Of a stretch of 64,000 nucleotides of DNA, positions 37,629 to 49,549 are shown in pieces (position 1 is the first letter of the stretch; the number at the start of each line of letters is the position of its first letter). The notes beneath the pieces are model-generated. The model saw only the letters and a program-made list of their open reading frames with translations. It made no database searches and was not told where the DNA came from. Made by a program: the position numbers and the translations under genes. The stretch is from Roseobacter fucihabitans (lineage in GTDB: Bacteria; Pseudomonadota; Alphaproteobacteria; Rhodobacterales; Rhodobacteraceae), in assembly GCF_014337925.2 (NCBI RefSeq), contig NZ_CP143423.1:2324501-2388500 (forward strand), in the 5' to 3' direction.

Positions 37629-40049
37629 TTACCCGCGCAGCCGCAAGCCTTGCGGGTCAAAAGGCGGTTCGTGCAAAATGCGAGCACGGTGGGGTTGGCC
37701 CAACACCATGACATCCACCGCATCCCCCGGTTTGACCCCCTTCACAAAACCCATCGCAAGACTCATCCCGACGCAATAGCCATAAGCCCCGGAAGTCACC
37801 CGACCCACACCTTTTCCGTCCATGAAAATCGGCTCCCCGCCTGTTGCATCCGCGTTTGATGCGTTGGTGGGGCCATCCTCCAGAGCCAGGAGAACCAGTT
37901 TTTCGCGCGGCTCATTTGCCAAGGTCCGGACGACCGCCTGACTGTTCAAGAATTCTTTTTCGGTTTTACACAGGCGTTCAAGCCCCACCTCCTGGGGCCA
38001 ATATTCCGGAGAATATTCGCGCCCCCAAGATCCATAGCCTTTTTCCAGGCGCAAACTCATCAGCGCGCGCGAACCAACCGGGCCAGCTCCCACCGCGTCT
38101 CCTGCCTGCAAGAGCGTTTGCAACAAGCGGGGCTGATACTGTGCTGCGCAATACAACTCCCACCCCAGATCGCCCGTAAAGGAAACCCGCAGCGCCAAGA
38201 CGCGGATGCCCCCAACCCTCATCCACATTGAGCGCATGAAAGAAAAATCCTGCGTTGCCAGCGATGTATCGGCCAAAGGTTGCAGCATTTCGCGCGATTT
38301 GGGGCCGGCGACGTTGAACCCACACATCTCTTCGGTTTTGCTTTCGAAGGTGGTTCCATCGGGAAGGGGGACCGATTTGAAAAACCGTTTGTGATAGCGT
38401 TCTGCCATGCCTGAACCGATGATCCAGAATTCCTCCTCTGCGACGCGCGTCACGGTGAAATCCCCCGCGATCCCGCCGTTTTTGCCAATCAGCGGCGTCA
38501 AACAAGAGCGCCCAACCGCATGCGGCACGGTGTTTGCAAAGACTGCGTTCAGCCAATTTTGCGCGCCTGGACCTTTGCAAAGATACTTTGCAAAGTTTGC
38601 AATATCTATGATCCCCGCGGTGTCGCGCAACATTTTACATTCTTGGCCGACCGGCTGCCACCAGTTCTGGCGGGTAAAGCCCTCGGTTTCCCGCATCTCG
38701 GGCGACGGCGCATACCAAAGCGGATGTTCCCAGCCGTAATTCAACCCAAACACAGCGCCAAGATCCTTCTGGAAATCATAGGCTGGGCGTTTGCGCATCG
38801 GGCGACCTGCCGTGCGCTCCTCATTAGGAAAGTGAATCTTGAACCGGTTGGCGTATTGATCCCCGACCCGCGCCTTTGTAAAACTTTTGTCAGCCCAAAG
38901 CCCAAACCGCGCCATATCCCAGGCAAACATATCATAGCGCGTTTCGCCCGCCACGATCCAATCGGCTGCCAACAACCCCATGCCGCCCGATTGCGAAAAC
39001 CCCGGAATGATCCCGTTGCAACAGAAGTAATTGGATAATTCCGGCACTGGTCCGAACAGCACGTTGCTATCAGGCGACCAGATCATCGGACCATTGATCA
39101 CCCGCTTGATCCCCGCCAGCCCGACGGCTGGCACACGGTCGATCGCCCGCATCATGTTCTCTTCGATCCGCTCCAGATCATCGGCGAAAAGTTCATGACC
39201 GAACCCTTGCGGCGTGCCGTCTTCAGCCCAGAACCGCACGTCTTTTTCATAGGCTCCCACAAGCAGGCCCTTACCCTCCTGGCGCAGATAATATTCGCCA
39301 TCCCGATCCGCGACCGATGGCAACCGGCGGTCAAGTGCTGCAATTTCGGTAATGGTTTCCGTCACGAAATACTGATGCTCGGTCGGTTGCAACGGCAATG
39401 CGATCCCGGCAAGCGCGGCGACCTCGCGCCCCCAGAGGCCCGCGGCATTGATCACCCATTCGGTTGCGATGTCGCCCTTTGGCGTGCGCACAATCCAGGT
39501 CCCATCACCCTGCTGCTCTGTTGCGGTGACCGGGCAAAAGCGGATAATTTCCGCCCCATTCTGGCGTGCGCCAGCGGCATAGGCATTGGTCACGCCGGAT
39601 GGATCCACATTGCCACCATCAGGTTCCCACATGATGCAGCGGATGCCGTCAAAGTTCACCAGAGGATGCAGCCGCTCGGCCTCATCGCGCGATATTTCAT
39701 GGAAATTCATACCATAAAGCTTGGCCTTGGCCGCTTGCAGGCGCAGTTGATGTTCGCGCTCCACCGTCTGCGCCAGATAGAGTGAGCCGGGCTGAAAAAC
39801 GCCACAACTCTGCCCTGTCTCTTCCTCCAACGCCTTGTAAAGGTTCATTGTATAATGCTGGATGCGGCTGATATTTGTGCTGTCATGCAGGCCGTGAATA
39901 TTGGCCGCCGCATGCCAGGTGGAGCCGGACGTCAATTCATCTCGTTCCAGCAGAACAACTTCTCGCCAGCCCAACTTCGTCAGGTGATAAAGGATGGAAC
40001 AGCCGATAACACCGCCCCCGATGACAACGGCCTGAGCGTGGGTGCGCAT
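37629..40049 (-). CDS. FAD-dependent oxidoreductase with GcvT folate domain (dimethylglycine/sarcosine dehydrogenase-like)
   Basis: This 806-residue protein has the architecture of dimethylglycine dehydrogenase: an N-terminal DAO-type FAD domain (VVIGGGVIGCSILYHL near residue 10; GSTWHAAANIHGL, whose His matches the residue that holds FAD covalently in DMGDH), an FAO middle domain, and a GcvT tetrahydrofolate domain (about 430-806). Such enzymes oxidise N-methyl groups and pass the one-carbon unit to folate. The exact substrate is unknown. The start at 40049 has AACAGGA nine bases upstream. A LysR gene is nearby. Confidence 0.85.
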   Translation of the reverse strand: MRTHAQAVVIGGGVIGCSILYHLTKLGWREVVLLERDELTSGSTWHAAANIHGLHDSTNISRIQHYTMNLYKALEEETGQSCGVFQPGSLYLAQTVEREHQLRLQAAKAKLYGMNFHEISRDEAERLHPLVNFDGIRCIMWEPDGGNVDPSGVTNAYAAGARQNGAEIIRFCPVTATEQQGDGTWIVRTPKGDIATEWVINAAGLWGREVAALAGIALPLQPTEHQYFVTETITEIAALDRRLPSVADRDGEYYLRQEGKGLLVGAYEKDVRFWAEDGTPQGFGHELFADDLERIEENMMRAIDRVPAVGLAGIKRVINGPMIWSPDSNVLFGPVPELSNYFCCNGIIPGFSQSGGMGLLAADWIVAGETRYDMFAWDMARFGLWADKSFTKARVGDQYANRFKIHFPNEERTAGRPMRKRPAYDFQKDLGAVFGLNYGWEHPLWYAPSPEMRETEGFTRQNWWQPVGQECKMLRDTAGIIDIANFAKYLCKGPGAQNWLNAVFANTVPHAVGRSCLTPLIGKNGGIAGDFTVTRVAEEEFWIIGSGMAERYHKRFFKSVPLPDGTTFESKTEEMCGFNVAGPKSREMLQPLADTSLATQDFSFMRSMWMRVGGIRVLALRVSFTGDLGWELYCAAQYQPRLLQTLLQAGDAVGAGPVGSRALMSLRLEKGYGSWGREYSPEYWPQEVGLERLCKTEKEFLNSQAVVRTLANEPREKLVLLALEDGPTNASNADATGGEPIFMDGKGVGRVTSGAYGYCVGMSLAMGFVKGVKPGDAVDVMVLGQPHRARILHEPPFDPQGLRLRG

Positions 40050-40249
40050 TAAAAACATCCTGTTTGAGTGCCCTGCTTCAATTAGTGACGCAGGTGAATG
40101 TCACCGGATTGCGCGTTGGCGACATATTACGTCGCAAGTGCACAAGGCATCGGATTTTTGCGCCGCATTGTCATCGCGTTAATACTACGACCCGCGTGGT
40201 TTTGCGAAAGCTCATGTCTCAACCTGTCATCTCTCGCGCAGGCGAGGGA

Positions 40250-41632: not shown

Positions 41633-42625
41633 TCAGGCGTTGACATCAACAACGACACGCCCTTTGACCTGACCCTTCAGGATATCTGCGCCAAGCTTCG
41701 GCAAATCCCCCAAAGTGGCGGGCACCACCATCGCTTCGAGTTTGTCCATCGGCAAATCGGCCGCGATGCGCGACCATGCCCGAACGCGATTACCATAGGG
41801 CTGCATCACGGAATCGATCCCAAGCAGGTTCACGCCGCGCAGCAGGAACGGAATGACCGTGCCCGGCAGGCCCGCACCACCCGCAAGACCAACCGCGCCG
41901 ACGGATGCACCATATTTCATCTGCCCCAGAACACGCGCCAGCATCGCGCCCCCCACAGCATCGACGCAACCGGCCCAAGTTTCAGCCTCCAGCGGGCGCT
42001 TGACCGTTTCGTTGATCTCCTCGCGCGCAACGATCTGTGTTGCCCCGAGCCCCGTGAGGTAATCGGCCGTTTCCGGACGCCCTGTCACCCCGGCCACCTC
42101 ATGACCCAGTGCTGCCAGCAACGCCACGGCAACCGAGCCGACACCACCCGCAGCCCCGGTCACAAGAACCGGACCATCGCCCGGTTTTAACCCGTGATCC
42201 TCAAGCGCCATGACCGCCAGCATCGCCGTGAAACCCGCCGTGCCCACGGCCATCGCCGCACGCGTATCCAGCCCCTCGGGCAAAGGCACCAGCCAATCCG
42301 CGTTAACGCGCGCCTTTTGCGAATACCCGCCCCAATGCGCCTCGCCCACACGCCAACCGGTCAACACGACCTTGTCGCCGGGCTTGTAGCGCGCATCCTG
42401 TGATGCCTCGACGGTTCCTGCAAAATCAATGCCCGGCACATGCGGATAGTTGCGCACCAAACCGCCACCCGGCCCGATGCACAGCCCGTCCTTATAATTC
42501 ACTGTGGAGTATTCCACAGCAACGGTGACATCCCCCGCAGGTAAGCGTTCCAGCGACATCTCCTCAATTGCAGCAGAGGTTTTGCCGCTCTCTTCGTCCT
42601 TGTTCACCACAAGTGCCTTGAACAT
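41633..42625 (-). CDS. acuI: Acrylyl-CoA reductase (NADPH) AcuI
   Basis: AcuI reduces acrylyl-CoA to propionyl-CoA, which removes a toxic product of DMSP breakdown. The 330-residue medium-chain reductase has the YhdH/AcuI hallmarks: STVNYKDGLCIGPGG near the N-terminus, YPHVPGIDFAGTV, the AVGTAGFTAMLAVMAL segment, the NADPH-binding VLVTGAAGGVGSVAVALLA (about 150-168) and ILKGQVKGRVVVD at the end. It follows dmdA by 66 bases on the same strand. In Ruegeria pomeroyi dmdA and acuI are adjacent and co-transcribed, which supports both calls. AAGGAAG is its ribosome site. Confidence 0.93.
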   Translation of the reverse strand: MFKALVVNKDEESGKTSAAIEEMSLERLPAGDVTVAVEYSTVNYKDGLCIGPGGGLVRNYPHVPGIDFAGTVEASQDARYKPGDKVVLTGWRVGEAHWGGYSQKARVNADWLVPLPEGLDTRAAMAVGTAGFTAMLAVMALEDHGLKPGDGPVLVTGAAGGVGSVAVALLAALGHEVAGVTGRPETADYLTGLGATQIVAREEINETVKRPLEAETWAGCVDAVGGAMLARVLGQMKYGASVGAVGLAGGAGLPGTVIPFLLRGVNLLGIDSVMQPYGNRVRAWSRIAADLPMDKLEAMVVPATLGDLPKLGADILKGQVKGRVVVDVNA

Positions 42626-42691
42626 ATCGTCTTCCTTTCCGAGGATAATTATCGCTAATGCTGGCGCCGATCAGAGGGGTTCACGCCGTCT

Positions 42692-43795
42692 TCAGGCCCA
42701 AAAACCCGGCTGTACGGTCGCGCTGCGCCTGCCCGCCGGCGTTTCAACTTCGAGCTTCGTGCCGCTATCCCAATGCGTCATGCGCACCATACCGATCGCG
42801 ACGTTTGTGCTGTAATCGGGGCTCCAGATCGCGGAGGTGACCTGCCCGACGCGCCGTCCCTGCGCAAACAGCGGCCAGACGCGATCACAGGGTGGCACCG
42901 GATCCCCATCAATTGTGATGGCCTGTACCTGCTGCACCGGCCCCTCTTTGGAGACCCGCAACAAGGCGTCCCGCCCGATACAACCAATCGCCGTCTGGGT
43001 GTCACAAAAGCGGCCCAGACCACATTCATGCGGCGTGTTGTCATCGGTCATATCATTGCCATAGGATAGTAATCCGCCCTCGATCCGTTCAATCGCATTG
43101 GGGCACCCGGCGCGCACATTCAGGTCCTCCCCGGCGGCGAAAAGCGTGTTCCAAATCGGCATGGCGATATCGCTGCCCTGCACGTAGATCTCAAAACCAC
43201 CCTGTTTGGAATAGCCCGAGCGTGCGATCACCAGATCACGGCCCTCAAACTGAAACAGACCAAAGCGGAAAAACCGGATGTCGCGGATCGTCTCGCCAAA
43301 GACGCGCGCCATCAACTCATCCGCCTTCGGACCCTGTATCGCCAGCGGTGACACATCCGGCTCATCCACCAGCACGTCCAGACGATACCCGTTGGCGATC
43401 CCCTTGACCCATAGCAAAAGATCACTGTCCGCGATAGAAATCCACCATCGGTCTTCGGCCAGCTTCACCGCGACAGGATCATTCAGCATGCCCCCCGTTT
43501 CATCGACGATGGGGACATAAAAGCACCGCCCCGGCAACATGCCACGCAGATCGCGGGGCGTCAGCATCTGCATCAGGCGCGCGGCATCAGGTCCGCGCAA
43601 TTCCACCTGACGTTCCACCGAAACATCCCAGATCTGCACGTGTTTCTTGAGGTGATGGTAATCCGCCTCCACGCTCTCAAACACGGTCGGTAACAGCATA
43701 TGGTTATAAACAGTATAGGCCTTGACGCCTGCGGCTTCGACACCGTCGGAGAAGGGCGTGCGACGCAGGCGACGTGAGGGAGAAATCAGCGCCAT
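42692..43795 (-). CDS. dmdA: Dimethylsulfoniopropionate demethylase DmdA
   Basis: DmdA moves a methyl group from DMSP to tetrahydrofolate, giving methylmercaptopropionate. It is a GcvT-family protein. Segments that match the Pelagibacter enzyme as I remember it are SRRLRRTPFSDGVE, YTVYNHMLLPTVFE, HVQIWDVSVERQVE, DRWWISIADSDLLLW and ARSGYSKQGGFEIYV. The length is 367. I chose the ATG at 43795, with AAAGGA upstream, over a frame open to 43828. It starts one base after the DinB-like stop, so it appears to be inside an operon. acuI follows. Confidence 0.9.
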   Translation of the reverse strand: MALISPSRRLRRTPFSDGVEAAGVKAYTVYNHMLLPTVFESVEADYHHLKKHVQIWDVSVERQVELRGPDAARLMQMLTPRDLRGMLPGRCFYVPIVDETGGMLNDPVAVKLAEDRWWISIADSDLLLWVKGIANGYRLDVLVDEPDVSPLAIQGPKADELMARVFGETIRDIRFFRFGLFQFEGRDLVIARSGYSKQGGFEIYVQGSDIAMPIWNTLFAAGEDLNVRAGCPNAIERIEGGLLSYGNDMTDDNTPHECGLGRFCDTQTAIGCIGRDALLRVSKEGPVQQVQAITIDGDPVPPCDRVWPLFAQGRRVGQVTSAIWSPDYSTNVAIGMVRMTHWDSGTKLEVETPAGRRSATVQPGFWA

Positions 43796-43796
43796 T

Positions 43797-44306
43797 TCAG
43801 GCATCCTTTGGCATGAATAACAGGTCACTCACCGGGGCTTTCTGTCCTGCTGCGGTCAGCATGGCGTGGATTTGTCCGCGATGATGGGTCTGATGGTTGA
43901 AGAAATGCACGATGCTCGACGCCACCGGGGTGGTCATGTTGCAATCCATAGTGCCAGAAAACCACGTCAAATCTCCCTTCAGATCAAGCGCACGCAGGCC
44001 ATCGGCCCAGAACCGGATCTTGCCGTCCATGCGAAAACGATCCGCCGACCAGGAGGTAATGGTCGGATGCAAATCAGTGCTTCGCGCACCCGTAACAGCG
44101 GGTGCCTCCACCGACGGATCAAACCGGCTCATCCAGATCGTATCCCCCCACAGTAAATGGTTCGCCGTCGCCAGAATACTGCCAAAGAAAGCACCCCTGT
44201 CGCGTATGAGGTCGTCGTGATCCATCGCTTCAAGAACCGGCTTCAACTGATTGTTTTGCCAAGTGTTATATTGCGCCATCATCCGAACAAATGCCGGATC
44301 AATCAC
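43797..44306 (-). CDS. DinB-family protein
   Basis: This 169-residue four-helix protein belongs to the DinB/YfiT fold, which includes metal-dependent thiol transferases that use bacillithiol or mycothiol, and many proteins of unknown role. Candidate metal histidines are in ATANHLLWGDTIW (near residue 50) and in HFFNHQTHHRGQIHAML (near 140), the usual positions. The start is a GTG at 44306 that overlaps the DUF1326 stop (GTGA), with GGAAAGG nine bases upstream. The dmdA start lies one base after its stop. Confidence 0.82.
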   Translation of the reverse strand: MIDPAFVRMMAQYNTWQNNQLKPVLEAMDHDDLIRDRGAFFGSILATANHLLWGDTIWMSRFDPSVEAPAVTGARSTDLHPTITSWSADRFRMDGKIRFWADGLRALDLKGDLTWFSGTMDCNMTTPVASSIVHFFNHQTHHRGQIHAMLTAAGQKAPVSDLLFMPKDA

Positions 44307-45010
44307 GGTTTGGGGCCTTTCCAATCAATCGGACAGATCTCAGCTGATTTGCCGCCAAAATCCCAGATGCGCCCGTAATCGCGCACCCGGCTTTTCAGGC
44401 CGGTCGCCGCGATGATATCCGGCCCCATCCAATATTTGGAATTGCTGACCATCACCGGGTGCTCGGGGTCCTTGCCCGTCAGCATTTCAATCTCGCCCTG
44501 AATTTTGCGTCCAATCATGATCGAGCGGCGATTGCCCTCCCGCACGATCTCTACCGGCGCGCGTTCGGCCCCGATGATCTCGCTGACCAGCATGGTAAAG
44601 AGCCCGGTTGTCCCCCCCGCGGCCCCGCTGAAAATTTGCAGGATCCCGTTATAGGCCTTGCCCGTGGCGCGCTCATCCACATAGGCGGCCACCTTCCAGT
44701 TGCCCTCCCCCATGCGGCCCGGAATATCCACCAGCAGCCCGATGTTCAGACCGGCAAGATCCTCGCCCTCATAATGGCCGGCGTCAATGGCGATGGCCAT
44801 CCAGGCGTGGCAATGCCCCTCCGTGGGCGGATGCGCGCCAAGGCTGACCACGCAGGGACAAAACACCGTGCAGGAGCAGTTCAGAAACAATTCACCCTTG
44901 ATCGCCCATTCCGTAGGCGTTGCAGAGCGGCGTTTCGGGTTGGGCATGCGCTGGTCGATCCGCTGACTGATCGGCAGCTTATCCGCGTCTTCGCGTCTGT
45001 TTGTCGCCAT
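44303..45010 (-). CDS. DUF1326 domain protein with cysteine cluster
   Basis: The 235-residue protein matches DUF1326. A metal-site-like motif is seen at residues 45-53 (CSCTVFCPC), followed by H66-C67-H68 (GHCHAW). The remainder is beta-rich, with GNWKVAAYVDERATG and LQIFSGAAGGTTGLFT. No transmembrane segment or signal peptide is seen. The ATG has GGGAGG nine bases upstream. It starts three bases after the DUF2182 stop. These two families often occur as a pair (from memory), which suggests that they act together, perhaps in metal handling (inference). Confidence 0.85.
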   Translation of the reverse strand: MATNRREDADKLPISQRIDQRMPNPKRRSATPTEWAIKGELFLNCSCTVFCPCVVSLGAHPPTEGHCHAWMAIAIDAGHYEGEDLAGLNIGLLVDIPGRMGEGNWKVAAYVDERATGKAYNGILQIFSGAAGGTTGLFTMLVSEIIGAERAPVEIVREGNRRSIMIGRKIQGEIEMLTGKDPEHPVMVSNSKYWMGPDIIAATGLKSRVRDYGRIWDFGGKSAEICPIDWKGPKP

Positions 45011-45013
45011 GGT

Positions 45014-45802
45014 TTATCCTCCCATCAACACAGGCCAGCCCATGACCGCGAGACCCGCGATGCACAGGGCGAAACCCATTGGTTTTGTAATATAATGCCC
45101 GACCTGGGGCAGTTTTTCGAGCACCATGAAAAGCGTCGCCAAACCCATCCACGCGAGGTTCATGACCCCGCCGACAAAGCCCAGCGACATGAAGCCCCAG
45201 CAACAGCCGACACAAAATGCGCCCAAACCAAGCCCCATGCGCAACCCACCCATGAAGCCCGTGCGCCAGTGGCCCAAGAAATACAGTGCCGGGGCATGAC
45301 ATACCCCGTGGCAGATTTCCTTGGCACGGCTGAACTGAAACAATCCAACAATCAGGAGTAACCCGCCTGCAACCCAGGGCGATTTTGCAATGCCCAGCAT
45401 GTCCACGACGCCCCCAAACAGCAAGGCCAGCTGCGCACCGGTAATCAGGGCCGCAAAGCCCACCCAGATGATGAAATACCCGAGCAACACGCCCAGCCAC
45501 CCGGCCCGCGTGCCATTGGCGCTGCGCATCAGGTCCTCATAGGCGCGCAAGGTCGGGACCAGCGTCGGCAACATCATCGCCGCCATCATGATCGCCCACA
45601 TCCAAAACAGGGGTCCGAAATTCGCCATCGGCATATACATGGGCATGCGCGGATCCATCGCCGCCATCGCGGCACCCATCTCACCGGGGCGACCCAGCAG
45701 ATCAAGGTCCATATCCACGCTCATGGCATACATCACCCACCATGCCGCCAATATTGCTGCGAAAAAGGCCAGCCAGAGGGTGGAGCGCAGAGTAACGTGC
45801 AA
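45014..45802 (-). CDS. DUF2182 integral membrane protein
   Basis: This 262-residue protein has about six or seven membrane segments, a Met-rich loop (DPRMPMYMPMANFGP, AIMMAAMMLPTLVPTLRA) and cysteine/histidine motifs: KEICHGVCHAP near residue 170 and FCVGCCWGFMSL near 205. This matches DUF2182, described as predicted metal-binding membrane proteins. I place the start at a TTG (45802), eight bases after AAGGA. The open frame reaches 46087, but that extension overlaps the divergent regulator gene and has no family likeness. Confidence 0.83.
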   Translation of the reverse strand: MHVTLRSTLWLAFFAAILAAWWVMYAMSVDMDLDLLGRPGEMGAAMAAMDPRMPMYMPMANFGPLFWMWAIMMAAMMLPTLVPTLRAYEDLMRSANGTRAGWLGVLLGYFIIWVGFAALITGAQLALLFGGVVDMLGIAKSPWVAGGLLLIVGLFQFSRAKEICHGVCHAPALYFLGHWRTGFMGGLRMGLGLGAFCVGCCWGFMSLGFVGGVMNLAWMGLATLFMVLEKLPQVGHYITKPMGFALCIAGLAVMGWPVLMGG

Positions 45803-45864
45803 GGGGTGAGTCCTTATTTCTTGCCAATCAAATGCCAGACAATTAGGTTTCGCACAAACATTAA

Positions 45865-45875
45865 ATGTAAGACAT
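45865..45875 (+). promoter_or_regulatory. Possible FadR-type operator
   Basis: ATGT-AAG-ACAT is a perfect inverted repeat with the GT-N3-AC core known for FadR-subfamily GntR regulators. It directly precedes the ATG of such a regulator, within the 73-base divergent region that also serves the DUF2182-dmdA operon. It is short, so chance occurrence is possible. Confidence 0.3.
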
Positions 45876-46610
45876 ATGAAAATTGATCCCGACAGCCCCG
45901 CCGATCTCTCTGCACAAATTGCTGCGGCCATCCGGGATGCGATTGTAGACGGCACGTTGATCGTTGATGCGCGCCTGCCCTCTGAGGCCGAATTGTCCGA
46001 ACAATTCGAGGTATCGCGCCCGACGGTGCGTGAAGCCTTGAAACGGCTGGCGGCGCAGTCGCTGATCCGCACGCAACGCGGGGCCACGGGGGGCGCGTTT
46101 GTGAACCGGCTGAGTTTCGAGGCCGCCTACCCGCAGCAGATCACCACCTCGACGCTGTTGCTGAGCATGAATGCGGTGAGTTTCAGCACCGCTTGCGAGG
46201 CGCGCTATGCATTGGAGCGGGCCTGCGCGCCGCTCGCGGCCGCCCGGCGCACGGCCGACCAGTTGGCGACAATGCGCGCCGAAATTCACCGCCAAGCTCA
46301 GCCGGGCCTGACGGATGAGGCCTTTTGTGCCTCCGATGTCGCCTTTCACCGCGCGTTGGTCGACGGTGCGGGCAACCCGGTGCTCAGCTATCAACTGGCC
46401 GGTGCCGTTGAGGCGATGCAGCCGCTGATGAACATGATCACCTTCACCGCGCGCGACCGGGCGCGGATTGTGTGCTTGCACACGAATGTGGCCGACGCGC
46501 TTGAGACGCAGGACGGCACGGCCACCAGCACGGCCCTCTCCGCCCTTGAGGCGGAGACCCAGACCCTGGCCGCCAGTGTGTTTGCCGCGCGCGCCGCCAA
46601 AAAGGCGTAG
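45876..46610 (+). CDS. GntR/FadR-family regulator with FCD domain
   Basis: The 244-residue protein has a GntR winged helix (about 10-75; LPSEAELSEQFEVSRPTVRE and LIRTQRGATGGAFV) and an all-helical FCD ligand domain (about 95-235) with metal-type histidine positions around DVAFHRALVDGAGN and CLHTNVADAL. It diverges from the DUF2182-DUF1326-DinB-dmdA-acuI run. In Ruegeria pomeroyi a GntR-type gene also adjoins dmdA (from memory), so it may control DMSP demethylation here (inference). An operator-like repeat precedes it. Confidence 0.88.
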   Translation: MKIDPDSPADLSAQIAAAIRDAIVDGTLIVDARLPSEAELSEQFEVSRPTVREALKRLAAQSLIRTQRGATGGAFVNRLSFEAAYPQQITTSTLLLSMNAVSFSTACEARYALERACAPLAAARRTADQLATMRAEIHRQAQPGLTDEAFCASDVAFHRALVDGAGNPVLSYQLAGAVEAMQPLMNMITFTARDRARIVCLHTNVADALETQDGTATSTALSALEAETQTLAASVFAARAAKKA

Positions 46611-48742: not shown

Positions 48743-49549
48743 ATGGCACAATTCGCCTCGATAAACCCGACCTCTCTTATGCGACTGATCGCAACACCAC
48801 AGGCCCCTGTGGTGCTTGACCTGCGCATAGATGAGGATTTTGACACTGATCCCTATCTGATCCCGACCGCCCGGCGCCACCCCTATGACCGGATCCAGGA
48901 TCTGGTGCCGGACCTCTTGGACAAACATGTCGTTGTGATCTGCCACAAAGGGTTGAAAATTAGCCATGGCGCGGCTGCGGTCCTGCGCGCCAAGGGTCTG
49001 CGCGCGCAGGTGCTGGAGGGTGGCAGCCTTGCCTGGCGCGCGCAGGATTTGCCGCGCATACCGGCATCACAGATGCATAGATCGGGCGCAGCCACGCGGT
49101 GGGTCACGCGGTGGCGGCCAAAAATCGACCGGATCGCCTGCCCCTGGTTGATCCGGCGCTTTATCGATCCCAGAGCGGAATTCCTGTTTGTGCCCCCCGG
49201 TGAAGTGGCCAGTGTTGCCGAAAAATTCGACGCAACCGCTTTTGATATCCCCGGCGCGCGCTGGACCCATGACGGCCCGCTATGCACATTTGACGCCATG
49301 CTGGCGGGTTTCGAGCTTCACACGCCAGCCTTGGATAAAATGGCGCGGATCATTCGCGGGGCGGATACAAATGATCACACCCTCGCTCCCGAATGCGCTG
49401 GTCTTCTGGCGCTCTGCGTCGGGCTGTCTAGCGGATTTCGGGAGGACCTGGCGCAACTGGAGGCGGGCATGACGCTCTTTGATGCGCTTTATCGCTGGGC
49501 GCGCGATGGTCAGAACGAAACCCACGACTGGCAGGAGGCCCCCGTATGA
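48743..49549 (+). CDS. Rhodanese-ChrB fusion protein, chromate resistance related
   Basis: The 268-residue protein joins a rhodanese-like domain (about 1-105; active-loop cysteine in VVICHKGLKISHG) to a ChrB C-terminal domain (about 115-260; WVTRWRPKIDRIACPWLIRR). ChrB proteins accompany ChrA and act as sensors or helpers in chromate resistance. The rhodanese part suggests a link to sulfur or sulfate chemistry, as chromate enters as a sulfate mimic (inference). AAAGGA precedes the ATG. Its stop overlaps chrA by four bases (ATGA), which shows translational coupling. Confidence 0.88.
   Translation: MAQFASINPTSLMRLIATPQAPVVLDLRIDEDFDTDPYLIPTARRHPYDRIQDLVPDLLDKHVVVICHKGLKISHGAAAVLRAKGLRAQVLEGGSLAWRAQDLPRIPASQMHRSGAATRWVTRWRPKIDRIACPWLIRRFIDPRAEFLFVPPGEVASVAEKFDATAFDIPGARWTHDGPLCTFDAMLAGFELHTPALDKMARIIRGADTNDHTLAPECAGLLALCVGLSSGFREDLAQLEAGMTLFDALYRWARDGQNETHDWQEAPV

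Follow-up and report, generated by a model that had tools for sequence, protein, structure and literature searches.

Linkage of a DUF2182-DUF1326 gene pair to dmdA and acuI, and a predicted GntR operator common to these operons, across Rhodobacteraceae

The genes dmdA and acuI, which encode dimethylsulfoniopropionate (DMSP) demethylase and acrylyl-CoA reductase, are preceded in Roseobacter fucihabitans by three genes encoding a DUF2182 protein, a DUF1326 protein, and a DinB-family protein. The array lies in a window of 64,000 nucleotides (the whole stretch of DNA that was analyzed; contig NZ_CP143423.1, positions 2,324,501 to 2,388,500), and the five-gene linkage is no local accident. Among the 106 Rhodobacteraceae genomes that hold both DmdA and DUF1326, 99 have the DUF1326 gene within 2 kb upstream of dmdA and in the same orientation. 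In addition, a predicted operator, AWWTGTCWGACAWTT, is common to operons whose first gene is DUF2182, dmdA, DinB, or acuI. The array, the linkage, the motif, and the operator common to these operons are features of the sequence itself; the best overall explanation, which we hold with moderate confidence, is an operon switched by a GntR-family regulator and containing a metal-handling DUF2182-DUF1326 pair.

The genes and predicted sites of the window are as follows:

45014..45802, minus strand: DUF2182 / PpoB2-family integral membrane protein, 262 amino acids, TTG start (PF09948, 196.4 bits against a gathering score of 28.7)
44303..45010, minus strand: DUF1326 protein, 235 amino acids (PF07040, 172.2 bits against a gathering score of 25)
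43797..44306, minus strand: DinB-family protein, 169 amino acids, GTG start (PF05163, 80.2 bits against 23)
42692..43795, minus strand: dmdA, DMSP demethylase, 367 amino acids (NF009133, 697.6 bits, cut-off 410)
41633..42625, minus strand: acuI, acrylyl-CoA reductase, 330 amino acids (TIGR02823, 443.5 bits, cut-off 297; 5gxe/5gxf, 633 bits)
45876..46610, plus strand: divergent GntR/FCD-family regulator, 244 amino acids, its promoter region common with the operon (PF00392, 66.1 bits; PF07729, 68.8 bits)
45830..45844, no strand assigned: predicted GntR operator site 1, one mismatch to AWWTGTCWGACAWTT (pattern scan)
45863..45877, no strand assigned: predicted GntR operator site 2, one mismatch to AWWTGTCWGACAWTT, 33 bp from site 1 and reaching the GntR start codon (pattern scan)

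The five minus-strand genes follow one another exactly as a first-pass annotation of this DNA had described, with gaps of 3, -4 (a GTGA overlap), 1, and 66 bases, and a plausible ribosome site, judged by eye, precedes each open reading frame. Read from the sequence, 73 bases separate the DUF2182 start from that of the divergent GntR gene. The annotation had considered that a terminator and a promoter might divide DinB from dmdA; a single base separates the two genes. Across the wider region, matches resembling promoters were not above shuffles (2 found, 3.1 expected) and terminator-like matches were barely above them (10 found, 6.9 expected, standard deviation 2.8). DUF2182-DUF1326-(DinB)-dmdA-acuI is presented here as what is very probably one transcript. 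DmdA is an equivalog by a wide margin, GcvT models scoring at most 161.3 bits. AcuI belongs to the acrylyl-CoA reductase family and matches the solved "Acrylyl-CoA reductase AcuI" (5gxe/5gxf) over residues 1-330; it scores below the narrow AcuI equivalog NF051456 (416 against a cut-off of 440), as do three other cassette AcuI proteins (411-436), and that model may exclude this AcuI branch.

The comparison of dmdA neighborhoods proposed in the first-pass annotation was made in 295 genomes of Rhodobacteraceae, sampled at about one per genus, and the DUF2182-DUF1326 linkage recurs. DmdA scored above the cut-off in 125 genomes and DUF1326 in 151; both were present in 106, DmdA alone in 19, DUF1326 alone in 45, and neither in 125 (Fisher p 2e-24). 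The 99 linked genomes comprise 91 recognized by listed coordinates and 8 by loci fetched around dmdA. Coordinates were listed for part of the 151 DUF1326 genomes, with the dmdA-less genomes G014, G067, G130, G153, G168, G180, G197, and G262 outside the linkage examination, and eight genomes with a divergent DUF1326 type alone were set aside. The 91 gaps between DUF1326 and dmdA fall into classes: 38 are of at most 215 bases, 1 is of 329, 42 are of 545-601, 3 are of 665-818, and 7 are of 1501-1702. DinB accounts for most of the 545-601 class, and 6 of the 7 gaps of 1501-1702 contain an acyl-CoA synthetase. The whole unit is also found on plasmids of Marinovum and Antarctobacter, the order on Marinovum pMaD9 being GntR (divergent), DUF2182, DUF1326, ligase, DmdA, AcuI, and SBP56 (a protein of the methanethiol oxidase family). 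The Marinovum record annotates the pair as "(transmembrane) protein involved in DMSP breakdown", so the link has been seen by an annotator.

The second line of evidence is the predicted operator. Regions between the GntR gene and the first operon gene were extracted, and occurrences of TGTCWGACA were counted against shuffles. The motif is present exactly in 126 of 150 distinct GntR-DUF2182 regions (shuffles gave 0.19 on average and at most 2), and 149 of them contain it when one mismatch is allowed; with the same tolerance it is also found in the regions between GntR and dmdA (4 of 4), DinB (1 of 1), and acuI (2 of 2). Many sites are paired; the commonest spacing is 15 bp, and a spacing of 33 bp, that of the window, also occurs. 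In the window's genome, the 15-base operator (at most one mismatch) occurs at four places, two of which are at this promoter; the third precedes a PRK08162-like acyl-CoA synthetase gene by 48 bases, and the fourth is at no assigned gene. Among 18 relatives of the same genus scanned for exact sites, 6 have one immediately before SBP56 and 2 have one at the cassette. More widely, an exact site is present in 36 of the 69 genomes with the SBP56 type of the window's genome (the reversed control pattern gave 4 matches in the 69), and these sites occupy 55 distinct places. As classed by hand, 29 places are at GntR promoters (27 near DUF1326 or DmdA, together with those in G160 and G003), 7 are at pathway-like genes, and 19 are at no recognized gene. 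The seven pathway-like genes are a dmdB-like ligase (G043 and G073), what appears to be the same acyl-CoA synthetase as in the window's genome (G036, G141, and G294), an acyl-CoA dehydrogenase (G278), and a crotonase (G187). This acyl-CoA synthetase belongs to the PRK08162 kind, which is distinct from the NCBIfam 3-(methylthio)propionyl-CoA ligase. In loci L319, L349, and L369, the operator-side ligases are fragments cut by the end of the locus and score below model cut-offs (664 of 677; 685 and 677 of 822), and for L377 and L384 the match to L319 was made on the first residues only. In G035, three scattered copies of CGGGCAAATTGTCTGACAAT (L372, L373, and L386) appear to be a repeat element that contains the operator core by chance.

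The regulator has GntR and FCD domains, is placed divergently, and has a conserved palindromic operator at its promoter. On these sequence features, control of the operon by GntR through the predicted operator is likely, and we hold it with good confidence. Because the predicted operator is common to operons with differing first genes and, in relatives, to pathway genes, DUF2182, DUF1326, and DinB probably belong to a GntR-controlled regulon for DMSP/acrylate. Likewise, because the pair has this switch in common with the dmdA-acuI cluster, DUF2182 and DUF1326 are probably working parts of the DMSP/acrylate pathway, by which marine bacteria degrade DMSP and acrylate, its toxic by-product. The suggestion in the first-pass annotation that the upstream genes have a helper function is supported.

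What the pair does is suggested by its families and residues. The first-pass annotation held that none of the first three genes had an accepted role, a statement that no longer fits DUF2182, since Pfam now names PF09948 "PpoB2, copper chaperone"; it had also proposed that the two DUF proteins may handle a metal, an idea to which both the family name and the invariant residues lend weight. DUF2182 contains several hydrophobic segments (simple hydropathy scan), and C164, C168, C197, C200, C201, M68, M72, M76, and M77 are invariant over 22 aligned homologs. In DUF1326, the cysteines C45-x-C47-x3-C51-P-C53 and C67 are invariant in 24 of 24 homologs. Since PF09948 is the PpoB2 copper-chaperone family and these Cys and Met residues are invariant, the proteins are somewhat more probably a metal-handling pair than not; copper in particular is a tentative assignment, which we place a little below an even chance. 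A generic metal-handling pair recruited to the GntR regulon would be the best reading. No solved relative of DUF1326 or DUF2182 was found by sequence up to E 1.

The invariant DUF2182 Cys and Met residues and DUF1326 Cys residues are kept both in the acuI-linked type and in a second, divergent DUF1326 type, in which the order is mostly DUF1326-DUF2182 and no acuI lies beside the pair (L064, L070, L080, L084, L085, and others). The divergent type occurs in Proteobacteria, Actinomycetota, Cyanobacteriota, and haloarchaea, and many of its copies are on plasmids; viral copies were not found in the single scan made.

In the proposed mechanism, DUF2182-DUF1326-(DinB)-dmdA-acuI would be a single operon driven from the GntR-DUF2182 intergenic region. 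GntR would bind the tandem TGTCWGACA operators and be released by a metabolite of DMSP breakdown, for which acrylate, acryloyl-CoA, or a related thioester is our guess. Release would switch on the operon and, in relatives, further steps of the pathway. DUF2182 and DUF1326 would act as a membrane/cytosol pair that binds and passes a metal, most likely Cu(I), with the Met and Cys residues of DUF2182 and the C-x-C-x3-C-P-C...C cluster of DUF1326 as ligands. The pair may supply the metal to, or protect the metal sites of, enzymes at the thiol/acryloyl-CoA end of the pathway, and DinB would be a dispensable metal-dependent accessory. A bolder form of this proposal is somewhat unlikely: that the two proteins are a new membrane-cytosol copper-delivery pair, dedicated by GntR to DMSP/acrylate catabolism across Rhodobacteraceae, which matures an unrecognized copper enzyme of the pathway (methanethiol oxidase in some species and another enzyme where it is absent).

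The composition of the cassette was counted in 133 genomes, each contributing one cassette; G032 and G185, which coordinates show to be linked, fall outside this set as their fetched loci are too short. In all 133, DUF2182 is directly upstream of DUF1326, and the other members are DmdA in 97, DinB in 69, an acyl-CoA synthetase in 7, and AcuI in 106. The steadiest partner is acuI, present in 106 of the 120 cassettes with enough downstream sequence (13 loci were dropped by hand because they end too soon), versus 97 of 133 for DmdA. In genomes without dmdA, the DUF2182-DUF1326(-DinB) block is mostly directly before acuI. The coupling to DMSP demethylation in particular, as put forward in the first-pass annotation, is thus not borne out, as the pair mostly stays with acuI when dmdA is absent. 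In three small genomes, a crotonyl-CoA carboxylase/reductase gene takes the place of acuI directly after DUF1326 (L081 in G281, L103 in G090, and L108 in G172). These three score 545-554 bits against a cut-off of 379, and the best match to the acrylyl-CoA reductase family in the same genomes is only about E 1e-30, versus about 1e-130 in most others. Four cassettes contain an acyl-CoA ligase and dmdA with no acuI within the fetched 6 kb. In two further loci (L086 and L096), GntR, DUF2182, and DUF1326 are on one strand and acuI is divergent; a DSBA-like protein (PF01323) adjoins DUF1326 in both, recognized by Pfam in L086 and by sequence likeness in L096.

DinB is, judged from its sequence and occurrence, an optional accessory. 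It was not found in 64 of the 133 cassettes; in one of these 64, the sequence breaks off immediately behind DUF1326. DinB follows DmdA in G005 and G093, and it precedes dmdA without the DUF pair in G100, G096, and G271. It is the most diverged member, with a median identity to the window protein of 51% versus 77-85% for the others, medians that are biased since the loci were picked by DUF1326 similarity. Of its His triad (H50/H138/H142), H50 is invariant and H138 and H142 are each present in at least 90% of 35 aligned rows. The closest solved structure by sequence is 3di5, a weak match (E 0.08). In G043 (L015 / L050), DinB is apparently decaying, with a shortened remnant between DUF1326 and dmdA, and the copy in L212 is degenerate, having lost two of the three conserved His residues. 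A cassette without the DUF pair in G003 (L331, 5516-8999) consists of GntR, the operator, an acyl-CoA dehydrogenase-like gene, DinB, and AcuI, with SBP56 nearby.

The prominence of acuI could also mean that the genes defend against acryloyl-CoA by shielding protein thiols and metal sites, with DUF1326 as a thiol/metal buffer and DinB as an acrylate-conjugating thiol transferase. This alternative is unlikely, although it would account for acuI being the commonest partner and being kept when dmdA is gone, for its replacement by crotonyl-CoA carboxylase/reductase in three genomes, and for the retained His triad of DinB; in addition, acuI mutants are sensitive to acrylate (PMC3338564; this paper, PMC5739008, PMC2855505, and PMC10936201 are cited here from portions of their text). 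However, DinB was not found in those 64 cassettes, and four cassettes have ligase and dmdA but no acuI in the fetched sequence. Moreover, cupin DMSP lyases (PF16867) were not enriched with the cassette in dmdA-less genomes (15 of 29 with it versus 21 of 51 without, p 0.48) in a test given 80 of 170 such genomes and covering cupin lyases only, with DddP and other lyases outside the search.

A second alternative names the client. Methanethiol oxidase is an obvious candidate, and DUF2182-DUF1326 could be a dedicated copper chaperone that loads SBP56/MtoX, which destroys the methanethiol made after DmdA. MtoX of Hyphomicrobium requires copper (PMC5739008), and Roseobacter-type SBP56 proteins degrade methanethiol (PMC10936201). 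SBP56 is in the same array on pMaD9, directly follows dmdA in G066, and, in G043 and G240, adjoins a GntR gene close to the cassette; the operator precedes it in 6 of the 18 same-genus relatives. Yet the co-occurrence is not supportive. Among the genomes with DmdA, no association between DUF1326 and SBP56 was seen (odds ratio 1.43, p 0.61), and SBP56 is absent from 41 of the 106 that have both DmdA and DUF1326; in these counts, five distant matches were set aside (96 of 101 kept) and eight unlisted dmdA-less genomes were counted as having the cassette type. Furthermore, the pair is retained with acuI in genomes that lack dmdA, mtoX of Ruegeria pomeroyi has its own SCO1/SenC gene (PMC5739008), and the operator-linked SBP56 scores 112 bits on the NCBIfam MtoX model, with a cut-off of 650. 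The SBP56 gene of the window's own genome is about 1.4 Mb away and has no operator (best match 5 mismatches). A dedicated SBP56 chaperone is therefore quite unlikely, and MtoX as the sole client of the pair was rejected on the co-occurrence.

The view that the upstream genes are an unrelated two- or three-gene unit that simply landed there and was kept by inherited chromosome order could draw on a wider region that is partly syntenic (23 of the 51 loci used have the commonest other neighbor family in common; 62 were given and 11 skipped), but it is very improbable and was discarded, given the tight head-to-tail linkage with acuI, the repeated gain or loss of dmdA and DinB around the pair (minimum presence changes on the DUF1326 tree, with the pair staying: DmdA 24, DinB 34, and AcuI 11, counts possibly inflated by the quick FastTree method), the two plasmids that hold the unit whole, and the operator that precedes whichever gene is first.

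Several observations weigh against the GntR-switched operon with a metal-handling pair, among them the SBP56 counts, the distant SBP56 gene without an operator, and the cupin lyase result given above. DmdA and DUF1326 are both present and not adjacent in 7 of the 106 genomes (G001, G090, G128, G136, G146, G158, and G172), some contigs of which are short, and 19 of the 125 DmdA genomes lack DUF1326, so that the pair is not essential for having DmdA. A divergent GntR gene was present in only 61 of 104 cassettes with a long enough flank. The 19 exact sites of 55 at no recognized gene include some inside genes, and the reversed control pattern has one match on each strand of the window's genome. 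As for the metal, none of the window's five genes encodes a copper oxidase, the client that a PpoB2-type protein has in its operon. Copper neighbors of the divergent DUF1326-DUF2182 pairs are only scattered, with a copper-related name within about 5 kb in 3 of 10 annotated plasmid contexts (Chroococcidiopsis, Caballeronia, and Mycobacterium gallinarum), a count made without a control.

Other genes near the array were noted. At 37629-40058 (minus strand), the window encodes an FAD-dependent oxidoreductase fused to a GcvT-like domain, and a gene of similar size, annotated as a glycine cleavage T protein, adjoins the regulator on the Marinovum plasmid. At 48743-49549 (plus strand), a rhodanese domain is fused to a ChrB C-terminal domain, which is linked to chromate resistance. 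Of the 51 loci, 12 have genes that we take, from their sequence, to be chromate transporter-like, at a distance of a few kb on the upstream side of the cassette.

The division of marine DMSP sulfur between retention by bacteria and loss as dimethyl sulfide depends in part on DmdA and AcuI. If the proposal is true, the pathway as usually described lacks components, namely two conserved proteins, one of them from a copper-chaperone family, encoded in the operon in about a hundred genera, and copper supply may affect the fate of DMSP. The switch between the two DMSP routes would also gain a candidate regulator and operator. Already known are the pairing of dmdA with acuI and the induction of the two genes by acrylate. 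Searches of the open-access PubMed Central literature did not turn up the constant DUF2182-DUF1326 pair upstream, the operator of the GntR regulator, or the wider regulon predicted here. No paper naming DUF2182 or DUF1326 was found there, nor was the phrase "involved in DMSP breakdown", and the portions available of papers mentioning both a GntR protein and dmdA gave no link between the two.

Among known systems, PpoB2 of Marinomonas mediterranea (COG5486), after which PF09948 is named, resembles the membrane member of the pair. PpoB2 is encoded by the second gene of its operon and is a putative transmembrane metal-binding protein in copper transfer to tyrosinase (PMC2855505). Whereas PpoB2 serves the tyrosinase of its own operon, the window operon has no copper oxidase, and DUF1326 is the constant partner. 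The mtoX-SCO1/senC-mauG operon likewise couples a putative copper chaperone to an enzyme of DMSP sulfur breakdown, but its chaperone is of a different family, an IclR regulator is upstream in R. pomeroyi, and the enzyme gene is inside the operon (PMC5739008). Another unit described in PMC3338564 is also acrylate responsive and pairs acuI with a DMSP enzyme; it differs in having a TetR-family regulator and a DMSP lyase, and the portions of that paper cited here do not mention DUF2182 or DUF1326 in connection with it. The closest likeness is to the dmdA-acuI operon of R. pomeroyi and other Roseobacter strains, in which acuI directly follows dmdA, likely in one transcription unit; acuI is next to dmdA in 24 of 26 dmdA strains, and in R. 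pomeroyi the two genes are induced about 12-14 fold by acrylate or DMSP and not by methylmercaptopropionate (MMPA) (PMC3338564). This induction may be brought about by the GntR regulator described here. The text of that paper does not mention GntR, DinB, DUF2182, or DUF1326, whereas in the window these genes precede dmdA and a single predicted operator is common to them.

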